Shown: piece by piece, positions 1,120 to 12,972 of the stretch
How positions within the stretch are numbered: position 1 is the stretch's first letter
How the letters are laid out: each line of letters begins with the position of its first letter
Origin: Pleurocapsa sp. MO_226.B13
Lineage (GTDB): Bacteria > Cyanobacteriota > Cyanobacteriia > Cyanobacteriales > Xenococcaceae
Assembly: GCA_030064795.1 (NCBI GenBank)
Contig: JASJEI010000183.1
Span: 1-13,497, forward strand
Reading direction: 5' to 3'
DNA: 13,497 nt
Made by a program: the position numbers and the translations under genes
Notes under the pieces: generated by a model
Database searches by the model: none
Told to the model about the DNA's origin: nothing
Seen by the model: only the letters and a program-made list of their open reading frames with translations

Positions 1120-1212
1120 ATGACAGACAAAGCTCTACGGGAACTCGCCTCAATACTCAATCCCACCGCTGACATTCCCCAAGGAGAAACGGTATTATGC
1201 CAGATGTGCTAG
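1120..1212 (+). CDS. Possible 30-residue peptide ending in CQMC
   Basis: This short plus-strand frame starts at ATG 1120-1122 and stops at TAG 1210-1212. The product begins MTDKALRELASILNPTADIP and ends in CQMC. It has protein-like composition and a C-terminal CxxC, as in the two peptides to the left. However, it has no leader GG, no ribosome-binding site, and its last 18 bases overlap the convergent DUF2515 gene. It may be a gene, the surviving 5' end of a truncated gene, or chance. Confidence 0.25.
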   Translation: MTDKALRELASILNPTADIPQGETVLCQMC

Positions 1213-2403
1213 AGTAGGACGGCTTCGATCCTTTTTCTTCATCATACGTTGAAGGAGAATGGAAAATTGTAGTGTTTGTGAATTACCAAGAAATGTCTCT
1301 GCAGAATCTGTTAAAGTTTTTAGCTTTAGAGGGTGAACGGGTACATCGAGCGGAGCCAGGAGGTTTTCAACCATCGCCCCCCGTTCCCGTACGGTTACTG
1401 GTAATGGTACGGGCTTATCGTGTAGGTGGCCATAAAAACGCATTTGAGTCGCATCGATAGGCCAAGCGGGGGGCTGATTTTGCCAAAATACCAGGGGCGG
1501 ACTATATTTTTGCTCCTTGTTCGCTCGAGGCCTCACACTAAAGCGATGAGGGTTATACTCGACCCTAGTGCCTCGGAATCGACGATTGGTCTTGGCCCAG
1601 GTAATCACCTGCTGTCGCCTTGTTTCTTCCCCAAACAGTCCCACATAAAGATCGCGCCCGATATTAACTCGGTTTTCGTAGATATTGAAATCACATGACA
1701 TGGTGTAAATTAGGAGGTGGTCAGTGTCGGGGTTGGTTTCAGATTTGGCAGCTGGAAAGCAGAGTTTGGCTAGCCCTAAAGCGGTCGATGCTAGGAAAAT
1801 TTGTTTGTTGATTGAGGAGAGCGCCAACCCCAAATAGGTATGTTTTGGATCGTGGAGCAAGCGATCGTGAATTTGATTTTGCTCGTTGGCGATTTGGGCA
1901 AAGGCCTGTCGCTGTACATCGGGTTCTTTCCACCAATAGGGAAACCATTGGTTTGCCCGTGCTTTTTTAAAAAAACTTTGCCAATGCTCAACTATAAATG
2001 GATCGACGTCAAACTGCGGATCGTCCTTGAGGAGAGCGAAGAAAATCTCATGATGTTCTGGATAGCGTTTGGCCCAGTCATAAGCTTCCATCTGAGGAAA
2101 GACATCTCGAAAGATCAGAAAGTTACCCATCTCTAAAAAGACGAAAAAGGCCTGATAATGGGCTGGCGGAAATCCAGGAAGTTTCATCCCATGGGGGGCC
2201 AATCGGGAAGCACGGAGCGAGTCGGACATGAACCAACCCGTATTGCGGGAAACCATATTGGCTAGCAGTGCCCAACTAATTTCAGGATGCTTTTGCCAAA
2301 AGGCCAGGTAGTAATCGGTTCGTCTGGGGTTATTGAGGGCAAAATGTTGGCGGCGAGCGAGGGTTAAACGCCGAAACTGTTCTTTTAGGGTTTGTGTCTT
2401 CAT
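1195..2403 (-). CDS. DUF2515 (YppC-like) family protein
   Basis: This is a soluble protein of about 402 residues and the last gene of the biosynthetic operon. The segment HPEISWALLANMVSRNTGWF near the N-terminus matches the signature of the DUF2515/YppC family known from Bacillus, where the function is unknown. The rest is rich in aromatic residues (FPYWWKEP, FGEETRRQQ). No signal peptide or membrane segment is evident. I chose the ATG at 2401-2403; a TTG at 2455-2457 would add 18 residues and bring the start to 12 bp from the end of the oxygenase gene. Neither has a good Shine-Dalgarno sequence. Its G+C (26 of 60 bases at 2041-2100) is lower than in the genes upstream, so it may have joined the cluster separately. 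The family assignment is from recognised motifs; the role in the pathway is unknown. Confidence 0.75.
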   Translation of the reverse strand: MKTQTLKEQFRRLTLARRQHFALNNPRRTDYYLAFWQKHPEISWALLANMVSRNTGWFMSDSLRASRLAPHGMKLPGFPPAHYQAFFVFLEMGNFLIFRDVFPQMEAYDWAKRYPEHHEIFFALLKDDPQFDVDPFIVEHWQSFFKKARANQWFPYWWKEPDVQRQAFAQIANEQNQIHDRLLHDPKHTYLGLALSSINKQIFLASTALGLAKLCFPAAKSETNPDTDHLLIYTMSCDFNIYENRVNIGRDLYVGLFGEETRRQQVITWAKTNRRFRGTRVEYNPHRFSVRPRANKEQKYSPPLVFWQNQPPAWPIDATQMRFYGHLHDKPVPLPVTVRERGAMVENLLAPLDVPVHPLKLKTLTDSAETFLGNSQTLQFSILLQRMMKKKDRSRPTLAHLA

Positions 2404-2469
2404 GGCACGTTGAGGGGTAAGGTTAGGTGGACGAAATATTTGTGTCAGAGCTGACAATTTCTTATGTTG

Positions 2470-3531
2470 CTACTTCAGGCTACTCAAGCAAGTGCCAGCC
2501 TCAATCTCACTCCTGGTTCTGTCGTCCTGTTGAGGCAGAGGTAGTAGCTGTCGCCGGTAGAGTCGCTGCAGTCGTTTGCGATATTCGACTAAAATTCGGT
2601 CAAAGCGACCTAGGCACATGCCGGTGAGATCTACCCGCATATCGGCAATTTGTTCCAGCATCTGTTTGTCCCGCTTCACCTCACGATCTAGAACCCATTG
2701 CAAAACCTGTTTCTGCACGAGATGGAAGATTAAACGTCCCCAACGAGGGGCTGCTAGGTAGTGCAGAGAGAGGCACTGGGTTTGGCGATCGTCTATGGGG
2801 TTGAAGAAAAACACTGAGAGCAGCCGTTCCTGGCGAGGCTGGCCAGTTTTGGCATTTTCCCAATAAATTTCGTAGGTGTGGTAAACCGGAGAGAAATGCA
2901 TGGTCAGGTGATTGAAAAAGCGATCGCCGCCGTGAATTCCAAACAGCTTTTCCAGGAGCCAGGGCAGGGGTCGCTGGGGTACAATCGACAGCAGATGGAT
3001 GCGCTCCTCATGGCTAAAGTCGAATATCGGCTCAACAGCAGCAGTATCAGCCAGGTTATAACCAAAAAAGGTATGGCTTGTGGGGGCGTGTTCCATCTCG
3101 GCAAAGATATCCACCACCAGTTCTAATGGAGCCTCAATCCGATGCTCTAGGGCGCAGGCCAACTCGTACTCGGGAAAATCCAGTTGTGGGAGCTGAGCGT
3201 TGCTGCCAGCGGCTTTGACCCAGATCCACCCGTACCGCTCCGCCGTCTCCAGGCTGTGGGCGCAGGGCTTGAGACTGGGGGTGCTAGGGCTATGACCCTG
3301 ACCGTCGGGGGCATAGCTCCAGCCGTGGAAAGGACACACCAAGCGATCTCCCTCTACCCAACCTTGGCTGAGGCGCATCCGGCGGTGGGGACAGCTATCC
3401 TTGAGCGCGCCAATCTCATCGGTCTGGATACGAAACAGGACAAATTCCTGTCCACAGAGCTGGATGGCAACGGGGTGCTCAGTTAAAGCCTGACTTGGTA
3501 GTACAGGATGCCAGTGATTGAGTTCAGTCAT
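2470..3531 (-). CDS. Rieske [2Fe-2S] non-heme iron oxygenase
   Basis: This 353-residue protein has the two-domain layout of Rieske oxygenase large subunits. The N-terminal Rieske cluster is bound by C47-x-H49 and C66-x2-H69, within CPHRRMRLSQ and CPFHGWSY. The catalytic domain shows a mononuclear iron site around residues 141-153 (DIFAEMEHAPTSH, with H148 and H153 as likely ligands). These enzymes use O2 and electrons from a reductase to hydroxylate, demethylate, desaturate or oxidatively cyclise a substrate. No dedicated reductase or ferredoxin gene is in the window, so electrons presumably come from host ferredoxin. The ATG overlaps the stop of the upstream ligase gene (ATGA, 3528-3531), implying translational coupling and joint action on the ligase or carrier product. 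The substrate cannot be told from sequence. Confidence 0.9.
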   Translation of the reverse strand: MTELNHWHPVLPSQALTEHPVAIQLCGQEFVLFRIQTDEIGALKDSCPHRRMRLSQGWVEGDRLVCPFHGWSYAPDGQGHSPSTPSLKPCAHSLETAERYGWIWVKAAGSNAQLPQLDFPEYELACALEHRIEAPLELVVDIFAEMEHAPTSHTFFGYNLADTAAVEPIFDFSHEERIHLLSIVPQRPLPWLLEKLFGIHGGDRFFNHLTMHFSPVYHTYEIYWENAKTGQPRQERLLSVFFFNPIDDRQTQCLSLHYLAAPRWGRLIFHLVQKQVLQWVLDREVKRDKQMLEQIADMRVDLTGMCLGRFDRILVEYRKRLQRLYRRQLLPLPQQDDRTRSEIEAGTCLSSLK

Positions 3532-5204
3532 GAGATCCCTCCTGGGGTGAAATGGTTTGGGGTGGAACGGTCTGGAGTGGCCTGGTACAGGCAGTCAATG
3601 GCTGCCTGAAAGTGAGCCTCGATGGCGGTACGGCGGAGCTTGCCATTGGCGGTGAGTAAGCCATTGACCTGGCTGAAGGGCTTACGGGTGTAGTAGAACT
3701 TGCGGATTTTTTGATAGTGGGGAACGGTCGCGTTGAAGCGCTCAATGGCTGTCTCTAGAGCGGATTCATCTGCTGAGCCGGAGAGAATGGCACTGAGAAA
3801 GGGGCGGCCATGGCCCACCACTATGGCGTGTTCCACCCCTTGACAGGCATCGATCAGCCGTTGTTCTAAGGGTTCCGGGGCAATGTTGTGGCCTGAGGTG
3901 GGCACCAGCAGATGTTTTAGTCGACCGACGAGCCGCCAATTGCCTGATGCGCTTACCTCGGCTCGATCGCCAGTATGGAACCAGCCATTGTCCATGACCT
4001 GGGCCGTAGCTGCTGGGTTGTTCCAGTACCCGGCAAAGATATTGGGACCCCGGCAAACCAGTTCTCCTTGCCTGGTTAAACGCACCTCACAGCCTTCAAT
4101 GGCGTGACCGACGTAGCCAGGGACTTGTCCCTGAAGCCGCTCGAGGGTGACCAGACCAGTGGTTTCCGTCAGTCCATAGCCCTGGTAGACTGGGATCCCG
4201 AGCATGGTAAACCAGCGCTGGGTTTCCACCCGCAGGGGGGCCGAGCCGCAGATGATTAGCTGGAGACTGGGGGCGATCGCCCGTTTAATTTGAGCCAGCA
4301 GAGTTGCCCTTATCCCCCTGAAAATCGGGGCGTCAATCCAGGGATTACCAGTCAGGGAGTGTCCATAGGCCCGCTGACCAACTGCGAACAGCCATTGGGG
4401 GATGGAGCCCCGCTGCTTCAGAGCCTGCTCAATTCCGCTGCGGAATCGCTCCAGCACCATGGGCACCGTCAGAAAGAACGACGGATCGGCGCAGCGGAGG
4501 TCGGCAGCCAGATTGTCTAACTGCGTCGATAGGGTCAACAGACGACCCTGATATAGTTGAGCCCAAAGGATGAGATGGGCCGGGGCAAAGCAAAACGGCA
4601 GAAAGTGAAAGGCTCCGCCACTGCTACTTGAGGGCTGAGTAATGGCCTCAAGCCGCTGGCTGACCAGGGGAATCATGTAGTCAAAGTTGGCACGGGTGAG
4701 CATGACCCCCTTGGGAGAACCGCTGGTGCCCGAGGTATAGATCACGGCGATCGCTGCATCCGCCGGAATGGGGTAAGGCTCTGCCTGGGTCGGTTCAGCG
4801 CCGAATACATCATCGACCAAGGCTATGGCACTGGGGGTAGGCCAGGCGGCTCGAATGGCCTGTTCGAGGGCGGCATCACCGATCAGCAACAGCTGAGGTT
4901 GGCAGTCGGCAAGCATTTTGGTCAGTTCCTGGGGACTCTGGCGACTATACAGAGGTACCACAATGGCCCCTTCTGCCAGAATGGCCAACTCGATCGCGAT
5001 CCAGCGGGCCGAGTTGGGAGCCAGTAGCGCCACTCGCTCGCCGGGGCATATCCCCTGAGCAGCGATAAAGGTGCGGGCGCGGCGGAGCTGCAGCGCCAAA
5101 TCTGCCGCTGAGATGTCCACCGATTGCTGGTCATGGATTTCTCTGAGAATCGGCCGATCCTCCAGCTGATACAAGTTTTGGTAAATTGTTTCCAGGAAAT
5201 TCAC
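3528..5204 (-). CDS. AMP-dependent acyl synthetase/ligase (long-chain acyl-CoA synthetase or acyl-ACP ligase type)
   Basis: This 558-residue adenylate-forming enzyme should activate a carboxylic acid with ATP and transfer it to a thiol. All core motifs are present: the P-loop TSGTSGSPKG (157-166), YQGYGLTET (340-348), TGD (411-413), the hinge region GRLK (427-430), and the C-terminal catalytic lysine K522 in LLTANGKLRR. The GRLK...LVPTSGHNIAPEPLE pattern is closer to long-chain acyl-CoA synthetases than to NRPS adenylation domains. With a carrier protein in the same operon, the acceptor may be ACP rather than CoA (inference). The start is GTG at 5202-5204, with GGAG nine bases upstream. A 126-bp gap precedes it, the only large gap inside the operon. 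Its stop overlaps the oxygenase start. Confidence 0.9.
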   Translation of the reverse strand: MNFLETIYQNLYQLEDRPILREIHDQQSVDISAADLALQLRRARTFIAAQGICPGERVALLAPNSARWIAIELAILAEGAIVVPLYSRQSPQELTKMLADCQPQLLLIGDAALEQAIRAAWPTPSAIALVDDVFGAEPTQAEPYPIPADAAIAVIYTSGTSGSPKGVMLTRANFDYMIPLVSQRLEAITQPSSSSGGAFHFLPFCFAPAHLILWAQLYQGRLLTLSTQLDNLAADLRCADPSFFLTVPMVLERFRSGIEQALKQRGSIPQWLFAVGQRAYGHSLTGNPWIDAPIFRGIRATLLAQIKRAIAPSLQLIICGSAPLRVETQRWFTMLGIPVYQGYGLTETTGLVTLERLQGQVPGYVGHAIEGCEVRLTRQGELVCRGPNIFAGYWNNPAATAQVMDNGWFHTGDRAEVSASGNWRLVGRLKHLLVPTSGHNIAPEPLEQRLIDACQGVEHAIVVGHGRPFLSAILSGSADESALETAIERFNATVPHYQKIRKFYYTRKPFSQVNGLLTANGKLRRTAIEAHFQAAIDCLYQATPDRSTPNHFTPGGIS

Positions 5205-5216
5205 GGGGTTGTTCTC
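5202..5216 (-). promoter_or_regulatory. Ribosome-binding site deciding a GTG start
   Basis: On the minus strand GGAG lies nine bases before a GTG, supporting GTG at 5202-5204 as the ligase start in the absence of an upstream ATG. Confidence 0.5.
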
Positions 5217-5290
5217 CGAGTAGGTCGTCTCTGTGGTTACAATGGGGGGTCTTTAATATCGATTACCTAAATGTTTGCTACAAATACTTT

Positions 5291-5323
5291 TTAAGTAATA
5301 AGTTTTAAGTAATAAGTAATAAG
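5291..5323 (-). repeat. Short tandem repeat in the operon gap (TAAGTAATAAG)
   Basis: TTAAGTAATAAG occurs at 5291-5302 and again at 5305-5316, running on as heptamer AAGTAAT units to 5323. It lies in the only sizeable gap in the operon, between the pyruvyl transferase-family gene and the ligase gene. An inverted copy of its 14-bp core is at 1083-1096. Confidence 0.6.
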
Positions 5324-5330
5324 CAATGTT

Positions 5331-6758
5331 CTAGGCGTATTGCTCTAGCAGCGCGATCGTGGTGGCCGATAGAGGGGGCAGATACGCCTCCCAGGAGGGC
5401 GATCGCTCGATTTGGGGAAAGTCTGGATACACTCGGGCTACTTCGCCCATGAATTCCCGGCCCATCTGTCCCATTAGCTGCAACTGGCGGACCACGGTCT
5501 GGGCAATCCTCTGGACAATGACCTCTCGGTCTTGTTCCAGGCGATGCAGCATGGGCAGCAGCTTGTCTCCCAGATCTGGGTCGTCCACCTCCAGCAGCAG
5601 GTCAGGGTGGTGGCGATCGCCCATCAAGTGACGAATGCGTTCATCCATAGTGACCCCCACCGACGGCACCAGACCCGTCATGGAAGTGACTATGGCGTGG
5701 AAACGGGAGCTGACTAGAAACGCACTATGGCGTAAAATACTCACCAGCTCATGCATGGTGTACTGGTCGCTAATAAAACAGGGCGGTGGAGATAAAAGCT
5801 GGGCAGCGAGGTCTTGGCAGGCCTGGCGATCGAGGCGTTCCATGCCCACCACAACGGGGAAAATATCTCGCTGCTGGCTAAAGGCATTAACGGCCTGGGC
5901 TAGTCCTTGAATGTAGGCGCGATAGCTGCGAGCGGCTGCTGCTGAATGGTGATGAAAGTAAATGGATTTGTAGTGGCGATCCCGGTACTTACCTGTGAAA
6001 CAATGGTGGGCAAACTTGCACAGACTGGGCTTTACCGGCCACCAAAAGGGATTAATCGGGCAAAGGGTCAGAATCGGCCGGAGCCCATCCCAACCCGCCT
6101 GTCTCAGCAGGTCGGTTCCCCGCTGGGGGGAATCGGGTTCAAAGGTCCAGGCGGTGTCGGCTCCTCCCGTACTGCGAATTCCCAGGTCTTGACTGAGCAG
6201 ATCATGGGAGGGTTGATTACGGCAGAGAATCAGCGAATTTTGGCACTGGCGGCGGACGAAGCGGCGCAAACTGGCACTCATAGCCCCCGCTTCGGCTCCA
6301 TAGCCGACGCTGAGCTTTCCCTCAATGGCGGCTAACCCCAAGGAAGCTGCCATCATGGTGGACAGACTATCGGCAAATTTGGACTTAAACATAGAGCCTT
6401 CACAGGCAATCACCCCATGGTGTTGGGGGCACTCGCGGTAAAGAAACTGCGGAAACAGGTGGGGTAGCCGTACCTGCTTGGCTCCTTGAAAATAGCCTGC
6501 CGTCAGGGTTGGATCCAGGGTCATCACCGTCAGCTCTACTGGCTGGCCCAGGAGGTGCTGCAGTTGCCGAACAATCTCGGCCACCCGTACATCGGCACCT
6601 GTGTTGCGAGCACCATTGTAGCCCGCGAGCAGGAGTTTGAGCGGCTTGCCAAGTCGCCACTGTTCCCGGGATAATCCCAGAGTGCGTTTGACTCGGGTGG
6701 CCTGGGCGTAGCCATGGGCCACCAGCTGTAGAGTTTGGTCTAGGTCTAGGAGGTTCAT
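5331..6758 (-). CDS. Polysaccharide pyruvyl transferase family protein
   Basis: This 475-residue protein has the hallmarks of the pyruvyl transferase family (PF04230, CsaB-like). The N-terminal nucleotide/sugar-binding glycine-rich stretch is GYNGARNTGADVRVAEI from residue 46. The late conserved block SSRFHAIVTSMTGLVPSVGV starts at about residue 350 and is followed by MDERIRHLM. Family members transfer pyruvate from phosphoenolpyruvate to a sugar hydroxyl, or use the same GT-B-like fold for related ligations. The protein is cytoplasmic, with no signal or membrane segment. ATG 6756-6758 is preceded by AAGGA at good spacing and lies about 20 bp after the SDR gene. Its presence suggests that the acyl product is joined to, or modified like, a glycan (inference). 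The acceptor is unknown. Confidence 0.85.
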   Translation of the reverse strand: MNLLDLDQTLQLVAHGYAQATRVKRTLGLSREQWRLGKPLKLLLAGYNGARNTGADVRVAEIVRQLQHLLGQPVELTVMTLDPTLTAGYFQGAKQVRLPHLFPQFLYRECPQHHGVIACEGSMFKSKFADSLSTMMAASLGLAAIEGKLSVGYGAEAGAMSASLRRFVRRQCQNSLILCRNQPSHDLLSQDLGIRSTGGADTAWTFEPDSPQRGTDLLRQAGWDGLRPILTLCPINPFWWPVKPSLCKFAHHCFTGKYRDRHYKSIYFHHHSAAAARSYRAYIQGLAQAVNAFSQQRDIFPVVVGMERLDRQACQDLAAQLLSPPPCFISDQYTMHELVSILRHSAFLVSSRFHAIVTSMTGLVPSVGVTMDERIRHLMGDRHHPDLLLEVDDPDLGDKLLPMLHRLEQDREVIVQRIAQTVVRQLQLMGQMGREFMGEVARVYPDFPQIERSPSWEAYLPPLSATTIALLEQYA

Positions 6759-6778
6759 CTTTGGCTTCCTTGAGGTTC

Positions 6779-7906
6779 TTATCCAGCCTGGGTTTCAGGC
6801 CAGGACTGATAGGGGAACTGGCAGCGGTGTTCAACTAAAAAGCGATAGAGGGGAGCTGCATAGGTGATGAAGGACGGAGGAGGGCTCCCCAGTTCCTGGA
6901 TGACTCGGGTATTGTCAAAGACGGTATTGAACACCAGATAGGGCATGAATACTTTGAGCCGGGTGGCTGACCGCGCGATTCCCCACTGACGGGGGGTGGC
7001 GGCTAAGGTCTGGATTAGCCAGGTCAAGGGCGATCGCAGCTCGGGCAAAAACAGGGGTGGTAACCCTCGGGTATCGGCGGTCAGACTCTGGACAATCTGC
7101 CGGTAGGTGGGGGAGTCTGCCCCTGCACTCAGGTGGTAAATGGTATAAGCCAGCTGCTTTTTTTGGTGTAAAATGGCGATCGCCCGTCCCACATAGTCGG
7201 CAGGCACAATGTCGATGCGCCAGTCCGGTTGCAGTGGTATCACCCTCACTCGATCTAGCAGGGCAAGAACCCTAGCCGTGTCGAACTGAGTGGTTTTGGG
7301 AAAGCGGCTATCCCCCAGCACCGTACTGGGACGAAAAATTGTGTAGGGAATATCCGGCAGTAGCTCTTGGACGAGATGCTCACAGAGCTTTTTGGTGGCT
7401 CCGTAGGGGTCGTAGTCTGGCTGTTCCCACTGAATGGCGTCAGCCTCAGTCACCACTTCGTTTTGGCGGACCCCGGCGACGGAGATGCTGGAGATGGCGC
7501 TGAAGCGGCGCAGGCCGTGCTCGGCATGAGCGGCGCGGGCCAGTTGCAAGACTGCTAGGGTACCGCGCACATTCACGTTAAGGCACCCCTGAGTTGACTT
7601 GCGGTTCACGAGCGCCGCTCCGTGAATTATGGACTCAACTGAACTCACGATTCGGTTCCAATCCTGTGGCGACAGGTCCAGGCGAGGCCGAGTCAGGTCC
7701 CCCAGATAGAGATCCATGCGGCTGAGTGCCTGCAGAAATTGCTCCGGGGTCATGTGCAATTGGAATGCCTGCCACAGGCGCGAGCGCGCCGCTTCGGTAG
7801 ACGGAGCCCGGACTAGCAGAGCCAGGCGCTCGCGGGTCGTAGCTAATAGTTCAGCGGCAACATAGGCTCCGATATAGCCCGTTGCCCCTGTCAAAAAAAT
7901 AGTCAT
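6779..7906 (-). CDS. Extended SDR / thioester-reductase-like NAD(P)H oxidoreductase
   Basis: This 375-residue Rossmann-fold enzyme has GATGYIG (residues 7-13) for NAD(P) binding, the SDR active site with SAISSIS and Y168-x3-K172 (YGATKKL), and the GDLTRPRLDL motif typical of the thioester-reductase-like branch of extended SDRs. It lacks a carrier-docking extension, unlike the gene just upstream. It probably acts on a released or carrier-bound acyl or aldehyde intermediate, for example a second two-electron reduction (inference). ATG 7904-7906 has a strong GAGAGGAG ribosome-binding site and lies 18 bp after the upstream reductase. It could alternatively be an epimerase/dehydratase-type SDR acting on a sugar, but the motif pattern favours reductase. 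Confidence 0.85.
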   Translation of the reverse strand: MTIFLTGATGYIGAYVAAELLATTRERLALLVRAPSTEAARSRLWQAFQLHMTPEQFLQALSRMDLYLGDLTRPRLDLSPQDWNRIVSSVESIIHGAALVNRKSTQGCLNVNVRGTLAVLQLARAAHAEHGLRRFSAISSISVAGVRQNEVVTEADAIQWEQPDYDPYGATKKLCEHLVQELLPDIPYTIFRPSTVLGDSRFPKTTQFDTARVLALLDRVRVIPLQPDWRIDIVPADYVGRAIAILHQKKQLAYTIYHLSAGADSPTYRQIVQSLTADTRGLPPLFLPELRSPLTWLIQTLAATPRQWGIARSATRLKVFMPYLVFNTVFDNTRVIQELGSPPPSFITYAAPLYRFLVEHRCQFPYQSWPETQAG

Positions 7907-7924
7907 GGGGTGCTCCTCTCGAAT

Positions 7925-9355
7925 TTACGCCGTGCGCTTCTCTAGCAAAGTGGGTTCGGGTTCGGGCTGCTGGCCACCGACTAAAAACCCTGTCCGCAGA
8001 AAATAAGCAAAATAGGTGCGCAGCAGTTGGTCATCGATCCTGGGGCAGGAGATGCCGGCTCCAGCCAGTGCGGCTCGGGTCTTCTGGCAGCTGAACTGGG
8101 GCCGTCTGCTCTGCTGGTATAGCTCTGGCAGGGTCAGATCTGTGCCTGGCAGCCGCCGCCGAAAAAAAGGTCGGAGCGGCACCAGGGGATTGTCCTGGGA
8201 GGACAGTCGGTGGAGCCGCTCGAGCCAGTCGCGGTAGGCAATCCGCTCCACGGCAAATCCCAAGGATTGCGATTGCATCCAGTCAATCAGCTGATGCCAG
8301 TGGTAGGTATGGGGATTGGTGAGATGGAAGGCTTGGCCCCTGGCCCCTGGCTGCTGTGATAGGTAGACAATGCTGCGGCTGACATAATCTACAGGAGCCA
8401 GATCTAGCCGATAGTCCAGGTCAGGGGCAGTGCCCATGTTCAGACAGCCCTTGAGCGTGCGACAGATCAGGTCATAGGTATTGACGACCCCCGTCTGGCT
8501 ATGGCCAGAGATAAAGGGGACTCGGTAAATACAGACGGGCAGACCGCGATCGCGGGCCATCATCACCAGCTTCTCGGCTACCCACTTACTCTGGGAGTAG
8601 CCTAGGCCCATTCCCTGGCTGTAGACCAAGGGATCTGACTCCAATATCTGTTTTTGGGCATAGGCGGGGGAGTCAAACACCGCGACGCTGGAAATATAGT
8701 GAACCGGCGCTGTCTGGCTGCAACTAGCGAGCCGTAAAACCTCCTGGGTACCTTGGACATTGACTGACCGCAAGCGAGGGTAGGAATAGATATAATTCAG
8801 CAACGCCCCACTGTGGTAAATGCAGTCAATTCGAGCGGCTAGCTGCTGAAATTGCTGGGACGAGAGCCCTAAGTAGGGCTGGCCTAAATCTCCGACTACG
8901 GGAATGATGCGATCGCCGTCAGGCTTACCCCAGATACCGTAGGCTTGGAGATTAGCCTGAATTCGCTTCTGCCCCGAGGGGACATCCACTGCCCGCACCA
9001 GGCAGTAAATGTTGGCTCTAGTCCGTTGCAGCAGTTCTTGGAGGATAAAGGCTCCTAAAAACCCGGTGGCTCCAGTCAAGAAAATAGCTGACGGTGGATT
9101 CTGCGAGACTGGGGATATCGCTTTTGGTCGAATGCTCGGCTCCAGCACGACTTCTGAGGTTAAATCCTCTGACCAGGCTGGGATTGCTTGCTGCTGCTGG
9201 ACTAACTTCAGTAGGGCGGGTTTGTGTTGGCGCAGAGAGAATCGTAGCTCCGCATTCAAGACCCCCTTGGGGGCCTGAATGCGGAGCTGGTCTCCATTGA
9301 CCCAGAGCGTTGCCCCTTGTTGGCGGAGATGAATTAGCAGTTGATGGGGTTTCAT
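7925..9355 (-). CDS. TubC-type docking domain fused to a thioester reductase
   Basis: This is a 476-residue protein. Residues 1-52 match the TubC N-terminal docking domain of NRPS/PKS proteins (LLIHLRQQGATLWVNGDQLR, then APKGVL and LRQHKPALLKLV). After a linker (about 53-88), residues 90 onward form a thioester reductase of the Lys2/CarA type: GATGFLG (95-101), VVGDL, SSVAV and the active-site Y253-x3-K257 (YSQSKW). Such domains use NADPH to release a carrier-bound acyl thioester as an aldehyde or alcohol. TubC domains normally sit at the N-terminus of condensation or other assembly-line modules, so a stand-alone docking-reductase fusion is unusual. Its ATG overlaps the ACP stop (ATGA, 9352-9355), consistent with the ACP as its partner. 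The C-terminus is Glu- and Arg-rich and has no membrane segment. Confidence 0.9.
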   Translation of the reverse strand: MKPHQLLIHLRQQGATLWVNGDQLRIQAPKGVLNAELRFSLRQHKPALLKLVQQQQAIPAWSEDLTSEVVLEPSIRPKAISPVSQNPPSAIFLTGATGFLGAFILQELLQRTRANIYCLVRAVDVPSGQKRIQANLQAYGIWGKPDGDRIIPVVGDLGQPYLGLSSQQFQQLAARIDCIYHSGALLNYIYSYPRLRSVNVQGTQEVLRLASCSQTAPVHYISSVAVFDSPAYAQKQILESDPLVYSQGMGLGYSQSKWVAEKLVMMARDRGLPVCIYRVPFISGHSQTGVVNTYDLICRTLKGCLNMGTAPDLDYRLDLAPVDYVSRSIVYLSQQPGARGQAFHLTNPHTYHWHQLIDWMQSQSLGFAVERIAYRDWLERLHRLSSQDNPLVPLRPFFRRRLPGTDLTLPELYQQSRRPQFSCQKTRAALAGAGISCPRIDDQLLRTYFAYFLRTGFLVGGQQPEPEPTLLEKRTA

Positions 9356-9690
9356 AGGACGATTTCTTCCACGTCGCCACAGTGCTGGGCCAGAGCTGCG
9401 ATCGTGGGATAGGTATAGGGTAGGGTGGGCTCCAGTTCCTGACCCAGCCAGCTTTCCAAATCTCCAGTCATCCCAAAGACCGTGACCGAATCCAGACCGT
9501 AACTGTCAAAGGAGGCGTGAATGTCAATGTCGTTAACCGACACTTCCAGGAAATCGGCTAGGTAGGAAACCAGCCACATTTGAATGTCATCGGGGGTTCG
9601 GGTCAGTTGGGAGCCGTAGGCCGTAGGGCCAGAGCGATGATCTGACAAGAGGGGGACTTGTTGGAAGATTTGAGGATGCAAGCGATTCAT
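9352..9690 (-). CDS. Acyl carrier protein (phosphopantetheine-binding)
   Basis: This 112-residue protein is the first gene of the operon. The carrier domain spans about 33-104, with the attachment motif FDSYGLDSVT (S68 carries the 4'-phosphopantetheine) and the PTIAALAQH helix of PKS-type ACPs. About 30 extra residues precede the domain. A short acidic-hydrophobic tail, GDVEEIVL, follows it and could be the linear motif recognised by the TubC domain of the next gene (inference). The protein would carry the acyl group activated by the ligase for reduction by the thioester reductase. ATG 9688-9690 has no evident ribosome-binding site. A phosphopantetheinyl transferase is not in the window and must come from elsewhere. 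Confidence 0.92.
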   Translation of the reverse strand: MNRLHPQIFQQVPLLSDHRSGPTAYGSQLTRTPDDIQMWLVSYLADFLEVSVNDIDIHASFDSYGLDSVTVFGMTGDLESWLGQELEPTLPYTYPTIAALAQHCGDVEEIVL

Positions 9691-9704
9691 GGCAGATGGC
9701 TTTT

Positions 9705-9734
9705 GACTTTAGCTTTAGACTTTAGACTTTAGAC
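9705..9734. repeat. Heptanucleotide tandem repeat (GACTTTA)
   Basis: About four units of GACTTTA, the second shortened to GCTTTA, lie 15-45 bp upstream of the ACP start codon, inside the likely 5' leader of the operon transcript. This is an STRR-type cyanobacterial repeat. Confidence 0.75.
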
Positions 9735-10020
9735 TGAATGGCACTAAGATAAGGGCGATCGCCTGTGCTTGTAGCTCTAGGGCTTGATAGGTCAAATGCT
9801 CAGATTTGACTTCCCCGTCTGTCAAAAAGATCTAGGCAATTTGCTCAGGCTGGTGTGAAGCTCTATAGCGTAAAAGATCGATTAAGGTTGAGCACCGCAT
9901 AGGTTCAAAATCTCTATCCGAATCCGGCAGTTGTCTTTCCCTTGAGTTATTTACAGTATGTCTAATGATTTAAATGAATAGTTGAGTCAAAATCAGGAAT
10001 ATTAGAATTAAATTCATTTC

Positions 10021-10060
10021 AGATAATTCAGGATAATTCAGGATAATTCAGGATAATTCA
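10021..10060. repeat. 10-bp tandem repeat, four units of GGATAATTCA
   Basis: Four consecutive 10-mers, the first beginning AG instead of GG. One unit is close to one helical turn. The array lies 50 bp from the left end of the IS element. There are no spacers, so it is not a CRISPR array. Confidence 0.85.
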
Positions 10061-10206
10061 GGGCAGATTCTTAATTCATAGACCGAACTTAACCATAGCC
10101 CTATCACATTGGTTCTGTCGCAAAAAAGAGGAAGGAGCATGTAGTACAATATAACTTAAGCAATCATACTCACGCCTTTCATCCTTCAATGAATCCCAAA
10201 GAACCT

Positions 10207-10250
10207 GACGGGGCTTTCAAGGTGGCGAACTAAATTCGCCACACAGCCCC
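10207..10250. repeat. Palindromic insert 1 in the transposase gene (frame-breaking)
   Basis: The outer stem is GGGGCT (10210-10215) with AGCCCC (10245-10250). The inner stem is GTGGCGAA (10222-10229) with TTCGCCAC (10235-10242), around a CTAAA loop. It interrupts the transposase between MNPKEP and LFKWRHF, introduces a TAA in the loop and shifts the frame by one. The architecture (outer stem, asymmetric internal loop, inner stem) is shared with the insert at 10535-10588. Confidence 0.8.
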
Positions 10251-10294
10251 TCTTCAAATGGCGACATTTCCAAAAAGAAATTATTTTGCTCCTC

Positions 10295-10336
10295 GCGCAT
10301 TCCCTTGCGCCTTACGTCGGCGCGGGGTCGCTCGTC
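10295..10336. repeat. In-frame GC-rich insert 2 in the transposase gene
   Basis: About 42 bp encoding AHSLAPYVGAGSLV between EIILLL and NVRWYLRY, two segments that are contiguous in IS6 transposases. It keeps the frame. It folds less perfectly than the other inserts: GCGCC (10307-10311) pairs with GGCGC (10319-10323), and CCC (10302-10304) with GGG (10324-10326). Its G+C is far above that of the surrounding transposase. Confidence 0.65.
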
Positions 10337-10534
10337 AATGTTCGTTGGTATCTTCGCTATCCTTTGAGTTATCGAAATTTGTCAGAAATGATGAAAGATC
10401 GAGGTTTGAAAGTAGATCACTCTACTATCGGGCGTTGGGTTCTGACTTATTCTCCCGAAATAGAGAAAAGAACTCGTCGTTTTCTCAAGCCTACCAACGA
10501 TTCTTGTCAAGTAGATGAAACCTACATTAAAGTG

Positions 10535-10588
10535 CGGAATGCACCGCCGCTTGCGAACTGGATTTTAAATCCAGTTCGGTCGGCGGTG
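10535..10588. repeat. In-frame palindromic insert 3 in the transposase gene
   Basis: About 54 bp (18 codons, RNAPPLANWILNPVRSAV) between DETYIKV and NGKWKYLYRAV, flanked by GTG on both sides. The outer stem CACCGCCG (10542-10549) pairs perfectly with CGGCGGTG (10581-10588). The inner stem AACTGGATTT (10556-10565) pairs with AAATCCAGTT (10567-10576). It preserves the reading frame and adds residues right after the first catalytic Asp region. Confidence 0.8.
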
Positions 10589-11057
10589 AATGGGAAATGG
10601 AAATATCTGTATCGCGCCGTAGATAGTGAGGGCAATACTTTGGACTTTATGCAAGCGTGCGAGAAGAAATAAAAAAGCAGCAAAAAGGTTTTTTAAAAAA
10701 GTACTAAAAGCTAGACAAAACAAACAGCCTAGAGTTATAAATGTAGATAAAAATGCGGCTTATTCGACCGCCATTGATGAACTTAAAGAAGACGAACTCT
10801 TAGAAGAAAATAGTGAATTAAGGCAAGTCAAATACCTCAATAACTTAGTGGAACAAGACCATAGAGGAGTCAAAAAAATTACAAATTATGGTCTAGGATC
10901 TAAGTCATTCCATACAGCTTGTCGGACGATTAGAGGCATTGAAATCATGCACATGATTAATAAAGGTCAGGTGGAAGGAGTTAGTAAAAAAGATGTTTTA
11001 GTCCAAAAGAAATTTGTCGAATCTCTCTTTAGGATTGCTGTCTAAAAAATTAGATAA

Positions 11058-11327
11058 TCATCGGGTTATTTTGTCTTTCTCTACTTTTTGCGACAGAACC
11101 ATGATTTCACCTTTTTCTATCCGTTCCCCTTCAGTGACTTTGAGGTCGTCTGGTTCGGTGACTTTAACGGTAATATTTAAACGTTTGGGTGTAGTAGTTT
11201 CTGTCTGTGTTACTTGAGCGATGTCTGTTGCCCAACTGGGTAGGGGATAAACATCACTAAAGATTATGGCGATCGCCATGCTGATTATGACCAGCCCATA
11301 AATGACTAACTTGCTAACCCGATTCAT
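11058..11327 (-). pseudogene. Membrane-anchored protein truncated by the IS element
   Basis: The frame of 89 codons starts at ATG 11325-11327. Residues 1 to about 24 form a signal peptide or signal anchor (KLVIYGLVIISMAIAIIF). Then come a Thr-rich linker and the segment NITVKVTEPDDLKVTEGERI followed by EKGEIM, which resembles the biotinyl-lipoyl-like hairpin of periplasmic adaptor or envelope proteins. The IS boundary at 11100/11101 falls right after this. The last 13 residues (VLSQKVEKDKITR) are encoded by the IS end, so the native C-terminal part is missing. No matching continuation was found left of the IS. The G+C and the signal anchor suggest a host gene. The original function is unknown. 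Confidence 0.7.
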
Positions 11328-11454: not shown

Positions 11455-12972
11455 ATGAATGCCAAATCAAAAAAACAACGGTCGATTAGTGCCTATAGCG
11501 ATTTTTTAAATACCTCCTTAGACGCACTCCTACAAAAAACTCTCAACACTAACGCCGAATCGGTAGCTCTCTCATTATTTCACGACGTAGCGAAGAGCGT
11601 TCCTGCATACAGAAATTTTTTAGCAGAACGAGAGATTAAGCCAAACTCTATCGAAACTTTTGAAGATTTTCAAACACTACCTTTAATTACCAAAGAAAAT
11701 TATCTTCAACCTCATCCACTATCTGCTTTGTGTCGTCAGGGACAAATAGATTCTTGCGATCTGATCGCCGTTTCCTCTGGTTCGACGGGAAAACCAACAT
11801 TTTGGCCGCGTTTCTTTACAGATGAGTTGCAAATTGCCATCCGTTTTGAGCAAATATTTCACGATAGTTTTGCTGCCGATAGGAGAAGAACCCTCGCAGT
11901 AATTTGTTTTAGCCTCGGAACCTGGGTAGGTGGAATGTATACAACTAGTTGCTGTCGCTATCTCGCCAGCAAAGGCTATCCCATCACCTTGATTACCCCA
12001 GGCAATAATAAAGAAGAAATTTTGCGAGTAGTAGAGGAAATCGGTAGTAACTTCGAGCAAATCGTACTACTGGGATATCCACCATTTCTCAAAGATGTAA
12101 TTGATACTGGTATTAGTCGTGGGATTGAGTGGCGACAATATCAAATAAAATTGGTGATGGCGGGTGAGGTATTTAGTGAAGAATGGAGGAATTTACTAGG
12201 TGAAAGAATTGGTTCTCAAAATCCTTACTACGATTCTGCCTCGCTTTATGGTACGGCAGATGCAGGGGTTTTAGGTAATGAAACACCGTTAAGCATATGC
12301 ATTCGGCGGCATTTAGCAGCTAATCCAGTAGCAGCGAGAACTTTATTTGGCAAATCACGTTTACCCACCCTCGTACAATACGACCCAATCGCCCGATTCT
12401 TTGAAGTCAAAGACGGAGTATTATTTTTTTCTGGAGACAACGGTATTCCTCTGGTGCGTTACAACATCTCGGACAATGGCGGGATAATTACTTACGATGC
12501 CATGCTTGAGTTTTTAGCGGGGTATAGTTTTAATCCCATAGCAGAGTTACAAACCGAAAATGACAGAGGTGCGCGTCCGTTGCCTTTTGTCTATGTTTTC
12601 GGACGTTCTAATTTTACGGTTTCCTACTTTGGTGCTAACATTTACCCAGAAAATGTGTCCGTGGGATTAGAACAGCCAGAAATTCGAGATTGGGTAACGG
12701 GTAAGTTTGTCATGCAGGTAAAAGAAGACGCAGACAAAAATCGATTTTTATCTATAGTTGTAGAATTAGCTCCAGGGGCAACAGACAATAAAGCTAACCC
12801 AGAGGCGGTAGCCTCTTCTATTTTGACTCAACTCTCACGTCTTAATAGCGAGTTTTCTAATTACGTTCCCGAAAAATACCAAATGCCACGAGTAGTATTA
12901 GCCCCAACTGGAGATCCTGAATATTTTCCTGTGGGGGTAAAACATCGATATACACGAAATCCGAATCGGTAG
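11455..12972 (+). CDS. Phenylacetate-CoA-ligase-like (PaaK/CapK) adenylate-forming enzyme
   Basis: This 505-residue protein resembles the PaaK/CapK branch of adenylate-forming enzymes. The ATP-binding loop is SSGSTGKPTFWPR (107-119). Downstream come MAGEVFSEEW and SLYGTADAGVLGNETP, matching the aromatic-acid-ligase pattern, then FSGDNGIPLVRYNISDNGG and a C-terminal subdomain ending near KHRYTRNP. These enzymes activate aryl or other carboxylates as acyl-AMP and usually make the CoA thioester; in secondary metabolism some load carriers. The substrate is unknown. ATG 11455-11457 has no strong ribosome-binding site. The gene is divergent from the truncated membrane protein. It is much AT-richer than the ligase of the operon, so it probably belongs to the host background rather than to the cluster. 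Confidence 0.85.
   Translation: MNAKSKKQRSISAYSDFLNTSLDALLQKTLNTNAESVALSLFHDVAKSVPAYRNFLAEREIKPNSIETFEDFQTLPLITKENYLQPHPLSALCRQGQIDSCDLIAVSSGSTGKPTFWPRFFTDELQIAIRFEQIFHDSFAADRRRTLAVICFSLGTWVGGMYTTSCCRYLASKGYPITLITPGNNKEEILRVVEEIGSNFEQIVLLGYPPFLKDVIDTGISRGIEWRQYQIKLVMAGEVFSEEWRNLLGERIGSQNPYYDSASLYGTADAGVLGNETPLSICIRRHLAANPVAARTLFGKSRLPTLVQYDPIARFFEVKDGVLFFSGDNGIPLVRYNISDNGGIITYDAMLEFLAGYSFNPIAELQTENDRGARPLPFVYVFGRSNFTVSYFGANIYPENVSVGLEQPEIRDWVTGKFVMQVKEDADKNRFLSIVVELAPGATDNKANPEAVASSILTQLSRLNSEFSNYVPEKYQMPRVVLAPTGDPEYFPVGVKHRYTRNPNR

Follow-up and report, generated by a model that had tools for sequence, protein, structure and literature searches.

The operon and its proposed chemistry

Can a single bacterial operon activate a carboxylic acid, load it onto a carrier and release it reductively as an oxygenated lipid, with no condensing enzyme beside it? 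This question is raised by a contig of the cyanobacterium Pleurocapsa sp. MO_226.B13 (JASJEI010000183.1), which we analysed over its entire length of 13,497 bases (the window; all statements of absence made for it hold within these 13.5 kb only). Seven minus-strand open reading frames (ORFs) run from position 9690 down to 1195, in the order acyl carrier protein (ACP), TubC_N-thioester reductase (ThR), second ThR-like reductase, polysaccharide pyruvyl transferase (PPT) family protein, ligase, Rieske oxygenase and DUF2515 protein. Adenylating, carrier and thioester-reductase functions (PF00501, PF00550 and PF07993/TIGR01746) are united in this one operon, and it is by this union that we recognise a split carboxylic acid reductase. 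To the reading that the operon is a split, docking-assembled carboxylic-acid-reductase pathway making an oxygenated lipid we give an even chance.

In the pathway that we propose, the ligase, judged by its family, would adenylate a free, probably fatty, acid and load it onto the discrete ACP, whose EEIVL tail would then dock on the TubC_N domain of the ThR. The ThR, which has the family match and the motifs expected of such an enzyme, would use NAD(P)H to release the chain in the form of an aldehyde or alcohol. The second ThR-like reductase may complete or add a reduction, the Rieske oxygenase may install a hydroxyl group, and the PPT-family and DUF2515 proteins may decorate or handle the product, in an order and with a chemistry that we infer. 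No chain building on site would be needed, and the predicted product is a specialised lipid of the oxygenated fatty aldehyde or alcohol type.

Families were called from Pfam bit scores and from curated NCBIfam models with their cut-offs, and catalytic motifs by pattern match. A first-pass annotation of this DNA had already described the seven genes, and its positions, strand and family calls were borne out by the ORFs, Pfam, NCBIfam and the motifs; its core of activation, carrier loading and reductive release is likewise supported. It had also stated that no ketosynthase (KS) or nonribosomal peptide synthetase (NRPS) module is present, which held for the 13.5-kb contig: tblastn with three KS and two condensation (C) domains found nothing in the window and matched the control loci, the C queries being less sensitive than the KS queries (cross-locus matches of just 52-107 bits).

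A putative docking pair between carrier and reductase

The ACP carries a GLDS phosphopantetheine site, and its closest relative in the PDB is Asl1650 (68.1 bits). Its C-terminus reads GDVEEIVL, and the TubC_N-ThR starts directly after it with a 4-base overlap, the TubC_N domain spanning residues 4-54 at the N-terminus of the ThR (PF18563, 59.4 bits). According to the accessible text of PMC9113145, beta-hairpin domains of the TubC_N type bind short C-terminal tails of partner carriers, contact in one solved docking pair is made by the last five tail residues alone, and such docking domains occur on thioester reductases. The first-pass annotation had called the ThR carrier-docked and had overlooked the EEIVL tail, which strengthens that claim.

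Comparison with other loci points the same way (L-numbers denote comparison loci and P-numbers related proteins from the database search). In Dulcicalothrix the ACP ends in GELEEITL, 21 bp ahead of a TubC_N-ThR, and in Leptolyngbya SIO4C5 (L072) an NRPS-like protein, its carrier end judged by eye, ends in REEIEL and overlaps a TubC_N protein. Two related genomes (L106 and L107) have a discrete ACP ending in SEFLEI 205-292 bp ahead of a TubC_N protein, and their other discrete ACP, with no TubC_N protein after it, ends in KNFND. An EEIxL terminus was found in three of 684 distinct, complete ORFs with a length of 90 aa or more, taken from L001-L083, L108, L109 and the joined L104/L105 (a small and clustered sample that leaves out the window, L110 and the rest of L084-L107); the three are two distinct proteins since L045 is a piece of L072. 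All of them precede a TubC_N protein, and a looser acidic/hydrophobic tail pattern matched the same three ORFs. The association of EEIxL with TubC_N is specific, though the sample is small and clustered. Because EEIxL was found elsewhere only just before TubC_N proteins, we read the EEIVL tail as a docking peptide and regard tail and TubC_N as a putative carrier-reductase docking pair. Separately, a 617-aa protein of an Hgl-like polyketide synthase (PKS) locus (L108:5407-7260) has TubC_N as its sole Pfam domain and closely follows a discrete ACP whose tail is acidic.

Of the two reductases, the first exceeds the cut-off of TIGR01746 (349.6 versus 213.35 bits) and the second stays under it (146.7 versus 213.35 bits), the latter being best called ThR-like. 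GxxGxxG and YxxxK motifs were found in both. The nearest PDB relative of the first is the MxaA reductase (family-profile search) and that of the second the MxaA reductase domain (82.4 bits, sequence search); no carrier or docking domain was matched in the second by Pfam. When the ThR was searched against plasmids with tblastn, 867 records were hit, all with less than 60% identity, and most of the 20 matches listed carry NRPS, PKS or thioester-reductase annotations. A sterol-type reading of these enzymes was rejected, as the Rieske protein reached 55.6 bits with SdmA and, with SdmB, the second reductase 33.9 and the first 23.7, all below the cut-offs of 600.

The activating ligase

The ligase has the motifs YTSGTSGSPKG, TGD and NGK. 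Its best curated model is the fatty-acid ligase FadD11 (171.9 bits, below the cut-off of 950), and its closest PDB relative is an entry named feruloyl-CoA synthetase (122.1 bits), with a fatty-acyl-CoA synthase practically level at 122.0 bits. PF23024, a C-terminal domain that we take to be the mark of a fatty acyl-AMP ligase (FAAL), was not matched at E 0.001, AMP-binding_C_3 standing in its place; PF23024 is present in the ligases of Dulcicalothrix (L104, L105). The first-pass label "acyl-AMP ligase" therefore stands as far as an AMP-binding ligase goes, and the acyl-AMP type is not established. By family the predicted protein belongs with acyl-CoA ligases, and a fatty-acid substrate is favoured. 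Among 106 genomes searched at E 1e-45, one was positive, with a match of 32% identity.

The Rieske oxygenase and its relatives

The Rieske protein has the CxH...CxxH cluster site, and C47, H49, C66, H69, E145, H148, H153 and D311 are invariant across 26 aligned Rieske sequences; H148, H153 and D311 are candidate mononuclear iron ligands. With the family profile, its best PDB match is SxtT (101.1 bits), and NdmA was also matched. Relatives of the gene were collected from a genome scan (39 loci, of which 4 are cyanobacterial by title) and from genome searches that gave five more cyanobacterial loci (L074, L080-L083). None of the 39 scan loci had the other window genes together. Matches below E 1e-60 occurred in 2 of 388 genomes of the class (35 of 388 at 1e-30), 5 of 388 genomes of one order and 2 of 299 of another, these draws overlapping and their positives including search centres or genomes already known (G001, G002, G003 and G358); the subfamily is uncommon.

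In 32 of the scan loci, four of them cyanobacterial, neighbours could be clustered, the other seven having been left out because the Rieske frame was missed by ORF picking. A flavin-monooxygenase (FMO)-like gene directly precedes the Rieske gene in seven of these 32, all outside the cyanobacteria (for example L017:8840-9991 and L030:8814-10004), with 4-base overlaps in four loci (L007, L029, L030 and L032). The FMO-like protein, two of the seven being covered by the Pfam scan, is perhaps an oxidation or electron-transfer partner of the Rieske protein. The remaining scanned neighbours were varied.

The pyruvyl-transferase-like and DUF2515 proteins

The PPT-like protein matches the broader PF04230 family, and it scores 66.2 bits with the CsaB model against a cut-off of 213.1. 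For this protein, a sequence search of the PDB at E 0.1 found nothing, nor did a search of 106 genomes at E 1e-20. Since the available part of PMC13291983 mentions a conserved pyruvyl transferase for which a tailoring function is proposed in certain hybrid lipid clusters, a role of this kind has been put forward for the family at least once elsewhere. The sugar-type decoration suggested in the first-pass annotation was a guess, and no glycosyltransferase family was matched by Pfam in the seven proteins.

For the DUF2515 gene, alignment makes an ATG start at 2403 likelier than a TTG start at 2457, and it also brings out a conserved helix with NEQNQ-x-x-DR. AlphaFold2 models reached a pLDDT of 86.2 for the window protein and 89.2 for its relative P0252; Foldseek found no PDB match for either model at E 0.001, a result that does not show a new fold. 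A lean towards an isoprenoid-synthase fold was not kept. A large protein search returned 25 proteins at E 0.001, and no relative was seen in viral contigs. Matches were found in 0 of 63 genomes at E 0.001 (the order of Leptolyngbya SIO4C5) and in 0 of 386 at E 1e-10 (the phylum), and since these searches lacked a positive control genome, rarity is suggested and not proven. A literature search for DUF2515 in one open-access library returned nothing.

Distribution and known systems

The nearest named proteins are cyanobacterial, and other close relatives come from unclassified cyanobacterial metagenome-assembled genomes. Leptothoe spongobia has relatives of the ThR (P0005, 62% identity over 80% of the query), the Rieske protein (P0123, 74% over 93%) and the DUF2515 protein (P0240, 60% over 95%), which appear to share one contig of 99,444 bases. 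Proteins near-identical to those of the window occur on other contigs (Rieske 98% over 82%, DUF2515 97% over 96%). The operon is apparently rare and cyanobacterial.

Carboxylic acid reductases (CARs) have adenylation, carrier and reductase (A-T-R) functions in one polypeptide; the window has the same three functions in three separate proteins. With the CAR model NF041592 the ligase scored 116.1 and the ThR 149.6 bits against a cut-off of 1300. The tambjamine YP1 enzymes TamA and TamH, as far as the available texts of PMC9594044 and PMC5939613 describe them, show the adenylation, ACP loading and ThR release that we propose here, turning a fatty acid into an amine by ACP loading and then the ThR domain (PMC9594044). 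In that system, however, TamA fuses adenylation with ACP and TamH fuses a transaminase with ThR, whereas ACP, ligase and ThR are separate in the window, which adds the TubC_N docking domain, the Rieske oxygenase, the PPT-like protein and DUF2515. HglB of heterocyst glycolipid synthesis has a homologous ThR; proteins of that name share 53-56% identity with the window ThR across 83-89% of its length. In HglB itself an ACP is fused at the N-terminus, and the protein acts together with Hgl polyketide synthases (in the accessible text of PMC8064123); the window differs in its separate ACP, the TubC_N on its ThR and the lack of a KS, and it does not have the composition of an Hgl system.

A close likeness was found in Dulcicalothrix desertica PCC 7102 (joined L104/L105), with the order FMO-FAAL-ACP-TubC_N-ThR-major facilitator superfamily (MFS) transporter. 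A discrete ACP ending in EEITL, a TubC_N-ThR 50% identical to that of the window and an adjoining ligase are shared, and KS was not found in either. The Dulcicalothrix locus differs in its FAAL-type ligase, in an FMO in place of the Rieske oxygenase and in its MFS and desaturase genes, and it gave no blastp match to the window Rieske, PPT or DUF2515 proteins. Its 36 kb (L104 plus L105) also encode phosphoenolpyruvate mutase on the L104 side, a radical S-adenosylmethionine protein, a carotenoid-synthesis-type protein, a desaturase and an alcohol dehydrogenase as well as fused FAAL-ACP-acyltransferase and FAAL-ACP-ThR proteins (L105:5217-11335), with no KS or C match, and may be a candidate lipid or phosphonate-like cluster. 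Given TamA/TamH, the CARs and the Dulcicalothrix locus, the ligase-carrier-ThR logic without chain extension is already known, and what appears to be new is this enzyme set. The first-pass remark that the combination was not recognised as a characterised pathway thus holds for the seven genes together, of which no description was found in one open-access library, and not for the underlying logic. In the available main text of PMC8225149, the words "thioester", "orphan" and "Rieske" have 0 occurrences each.

Weighing the alternatives

The operon might also serve a PKS or NRPS by tailoring and releasing its product, the synthase genes lying elsewhere or having been lost beside the insertion sequence (IS) upstream of the operon; the ACP would then take over a chain assembled in trans, with a starter supplied by the ligase. 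We regard this as possible, if somewhat unlikely. The contig spans just 13.5 kb, and the rest of the genome may encode a partner synthase. Of the 9 cyanobacterial loci, 5 (L001, L002, L074, L081 and L083) have a KS match near the Rieske relative, compared with a single one (L039, 95 bits) of the 35 from outside the cyanobacteria; two of the four KS-free cyanobacterial loci are short (L003, 5.8 kb; L004, 7.9 kb). In Moorena (L001) the relative stands with KS-acyltransferase (AT), ACP-aminotransferase-C and two fatty-acid desaturases, in Calothrix (L002) with an NRPS and a KS-AT-ACP-ThR protein, and in L083 with a KS-ketoreductase-ACP-ThR protein, a P450 and a glycosyltransferase-like gene; in these last two the KS protein ends in a ThR, and L108 and L109 have an unfused 457-aa ThR among KS genes. 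The Rieske genes of the five PKS/NRPS clusters belong to the same subfamily as that of the window (identity 55% for L001, 43% for L002, 32% for L081 and 34% for L083), and since this group is often found beside PKS genes in cyanobacteria, the absence of a condensing enzyme is less likely to be basic to the pathway. The first-pass annotation had named a PKS or NRPS megasynthase adjacent to homologous operons as evidence against it; such neighbours were seen for relatives of the Rieske gene and not for the whole operon. These cyanobacterial loci differ from the window, however, in that KS modules adjoin and no DUF2515 match was obtained by blastp. Moreover, the operon has its own activating ligase, Dulcicalothrix keeps ligase, ACP and TubC_N-ThR in a 36-kb region where neither KS nor C was matched, and the EEIVL tail suggests that the ACP pairs with the encoded ThR and not with an outside module.

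If the ligase activated an aryl or other small carboxylic acid, the operon would be a split aryl carboxylic acid reductase and its product a small oxidised aromatic aldehyde or alcohol. The feruloyl-CoA synthetase at the top of the PDB matches of the ligase and the profile matches of the Rieske protein to SxtT and NdmA, which are oxygenases of small substrates, are in line with this idea, but FadD11 as best curated family, the AMP-binding_C_3 C-terminus, the HglB proteins and the FAAL-linked Dulcicalothrix ThR among the close ThRs, and the two desaturases next to the Rieske relative of L001 make it clearly improbable. That the IS element marks a mis-assembly between an operon of high GC and a flank of low GC is very improbable indeed: the GC change is sharp and an IS element lies on one side, but none was noticed on the DUF2515 side, where the GC content at third codon positions (GC3) is intermediate (0.469), and the near-identical Rieske and DUF2515 proteins on other contigs (compared at the protein level) argue for a genuine arrangement.

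The split-reductase reading itself has to be set against several observations besides the KS neighbours and the possible partner synthase. A ligase without the FAAL-type domain could make acyl-CoA instead. The [DN]xx[ED]xxH pattern for mononuclear iron is unmatched in the Rieske protein, its family having E145-x-E147-H148-x4-H153 instead. The SEFLEI tail of L106 and L107 does not fit even the looser acidic/hydrophobic pattern. Finally, the recorded Leptothoe ThR relative P0005 (395 aa) has no TubC_N, so that either docking is not universal or essential in the group or the start of P0005 was misread.

Genomic setting and neighbouring features

The coordinates of the operon genes and of the upstream IS element are collected in Table 1. 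Two junctions, ACP/ThR and ligase/Rieske, are 4-base overlaps; 18 bp separate the ThR and the second reductase genes, 20 bp the second reductase and PPT genes, and 12 or 66 bp, depending on the start chosen, the Rieske and DUF2515 genes, the widest gap being the 126 bp between PPT and ligase. No promoter-like site was found on the operon strand in 9600-10400, and an Rfam scan of the window matched no family.

Table 1. Features of the window with their positions, strands and main family evidence.
Feature	Position	Strand	Evidence
Discrete acyl carrier protein (ACP), 112 aa	9352..9690	-	PF00550 PP-binding 51.7 bits
TubC_N docking domain + thioester reductase (ThR), 476 aa	7925..9355	-	PF18563 59.4, PF07993 238.2 bits, TIGR01746 349.6
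Second ThR-like short-chain reductase, 375 aa	6779..7906	-	PF07993 NAD_binding_4 151.2 bits; TIGR01746 below cut-off
Polysaccharide pyruvyl transferase family protein, 475 aa	5331..6758	-	PF04230 PS_pyruv_trans 37.9 bits
Acyl-activating AMP-binding ligase, long-chain acyl-CoA-ligase-type C-terminus	3528..5204	-	PF00501 185.9, PF23562 AMP-binding_C_3 41.8 bits
Rieske non-heme iron oxygenase, 353 aa	2470..3531	-	PF00355 69.5 bits
DUF2515 protein, likely start 2403	1195..2457	-	PF10720 73.1 bits
IS6/IS240-family insertion sequence	10110..11101	+	perfect 17-bp terminal inverted repeats; DDE_Tnp_IS240

The genes from ACP through Rieske have a GC3 of 0.60-0.65, and the flanking ORFs are lower than the DUF2515 gene, at 0.29-0.46. 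Upstream of the ACP gene, at a distance of 419 bp, lies the IS element, its transposase being split over two frames (10286-10672 and 10626-11045) and 96 bases of its left end being 80% identical to a stretch of a Chondrocystis plasmid annotated as integrase. Megablast of the window against plasmids gave only two matching pieces, both inside the IS element, in two records. Since the GC3 contrast between operon and flanks and the nearby IS element have horizontal gain as their simplest reading, the operon was probably gained horizontally.

In the flanks, an 83-aa ORF on the minus strand (375-626) contains LEDLEQFAGG followed by a 14-residue tail with two cysteines; it resembles a precursor of the ribosomally synthesised and post-translationally modified peptide type, with double-glycine leader and core, and it had no supported Pfam or NCBIfam match. 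On the plus strand, the low-GC flank encodes a 505-aa PaaK-like adenylating protein (11455-12972), with NCBIfam matches far below cut-off (best 43.2 bits versus 700) and no supported Pfam domain.

Implications

The operon offers a compact putative example of an acyl chain released by reduction outside a megasynthase, with two small proteins that carry a readable docking signal, and the EEIxL tail/TubC_N system could be reconstituted from few genes. DUF2515 is now tied to a specific operon, and the Rieske subfamily appears to have been recruited into cyanobacterial specialised metabolism. A bolder view, which we hold only tentatively and consider unlikely, is that of a self-contained, KS-free lipid pathway of cyanobacteria, including the sponge-associated Leptothoe, in which a docking tail hands the acyl-ACP to a stand-alone reductase and a Rieske oxygenase, a PPT-like protein and a catalytic DUF2515 of unrecognised fold would yield fatty alcohols of a new class, oxygenated and possibly pyruvylated. 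If the product did prove to be a new lipid, made by Leptothoe or other sponge-associated cyanobacteria, the operon would be a concrete target for genome mining.

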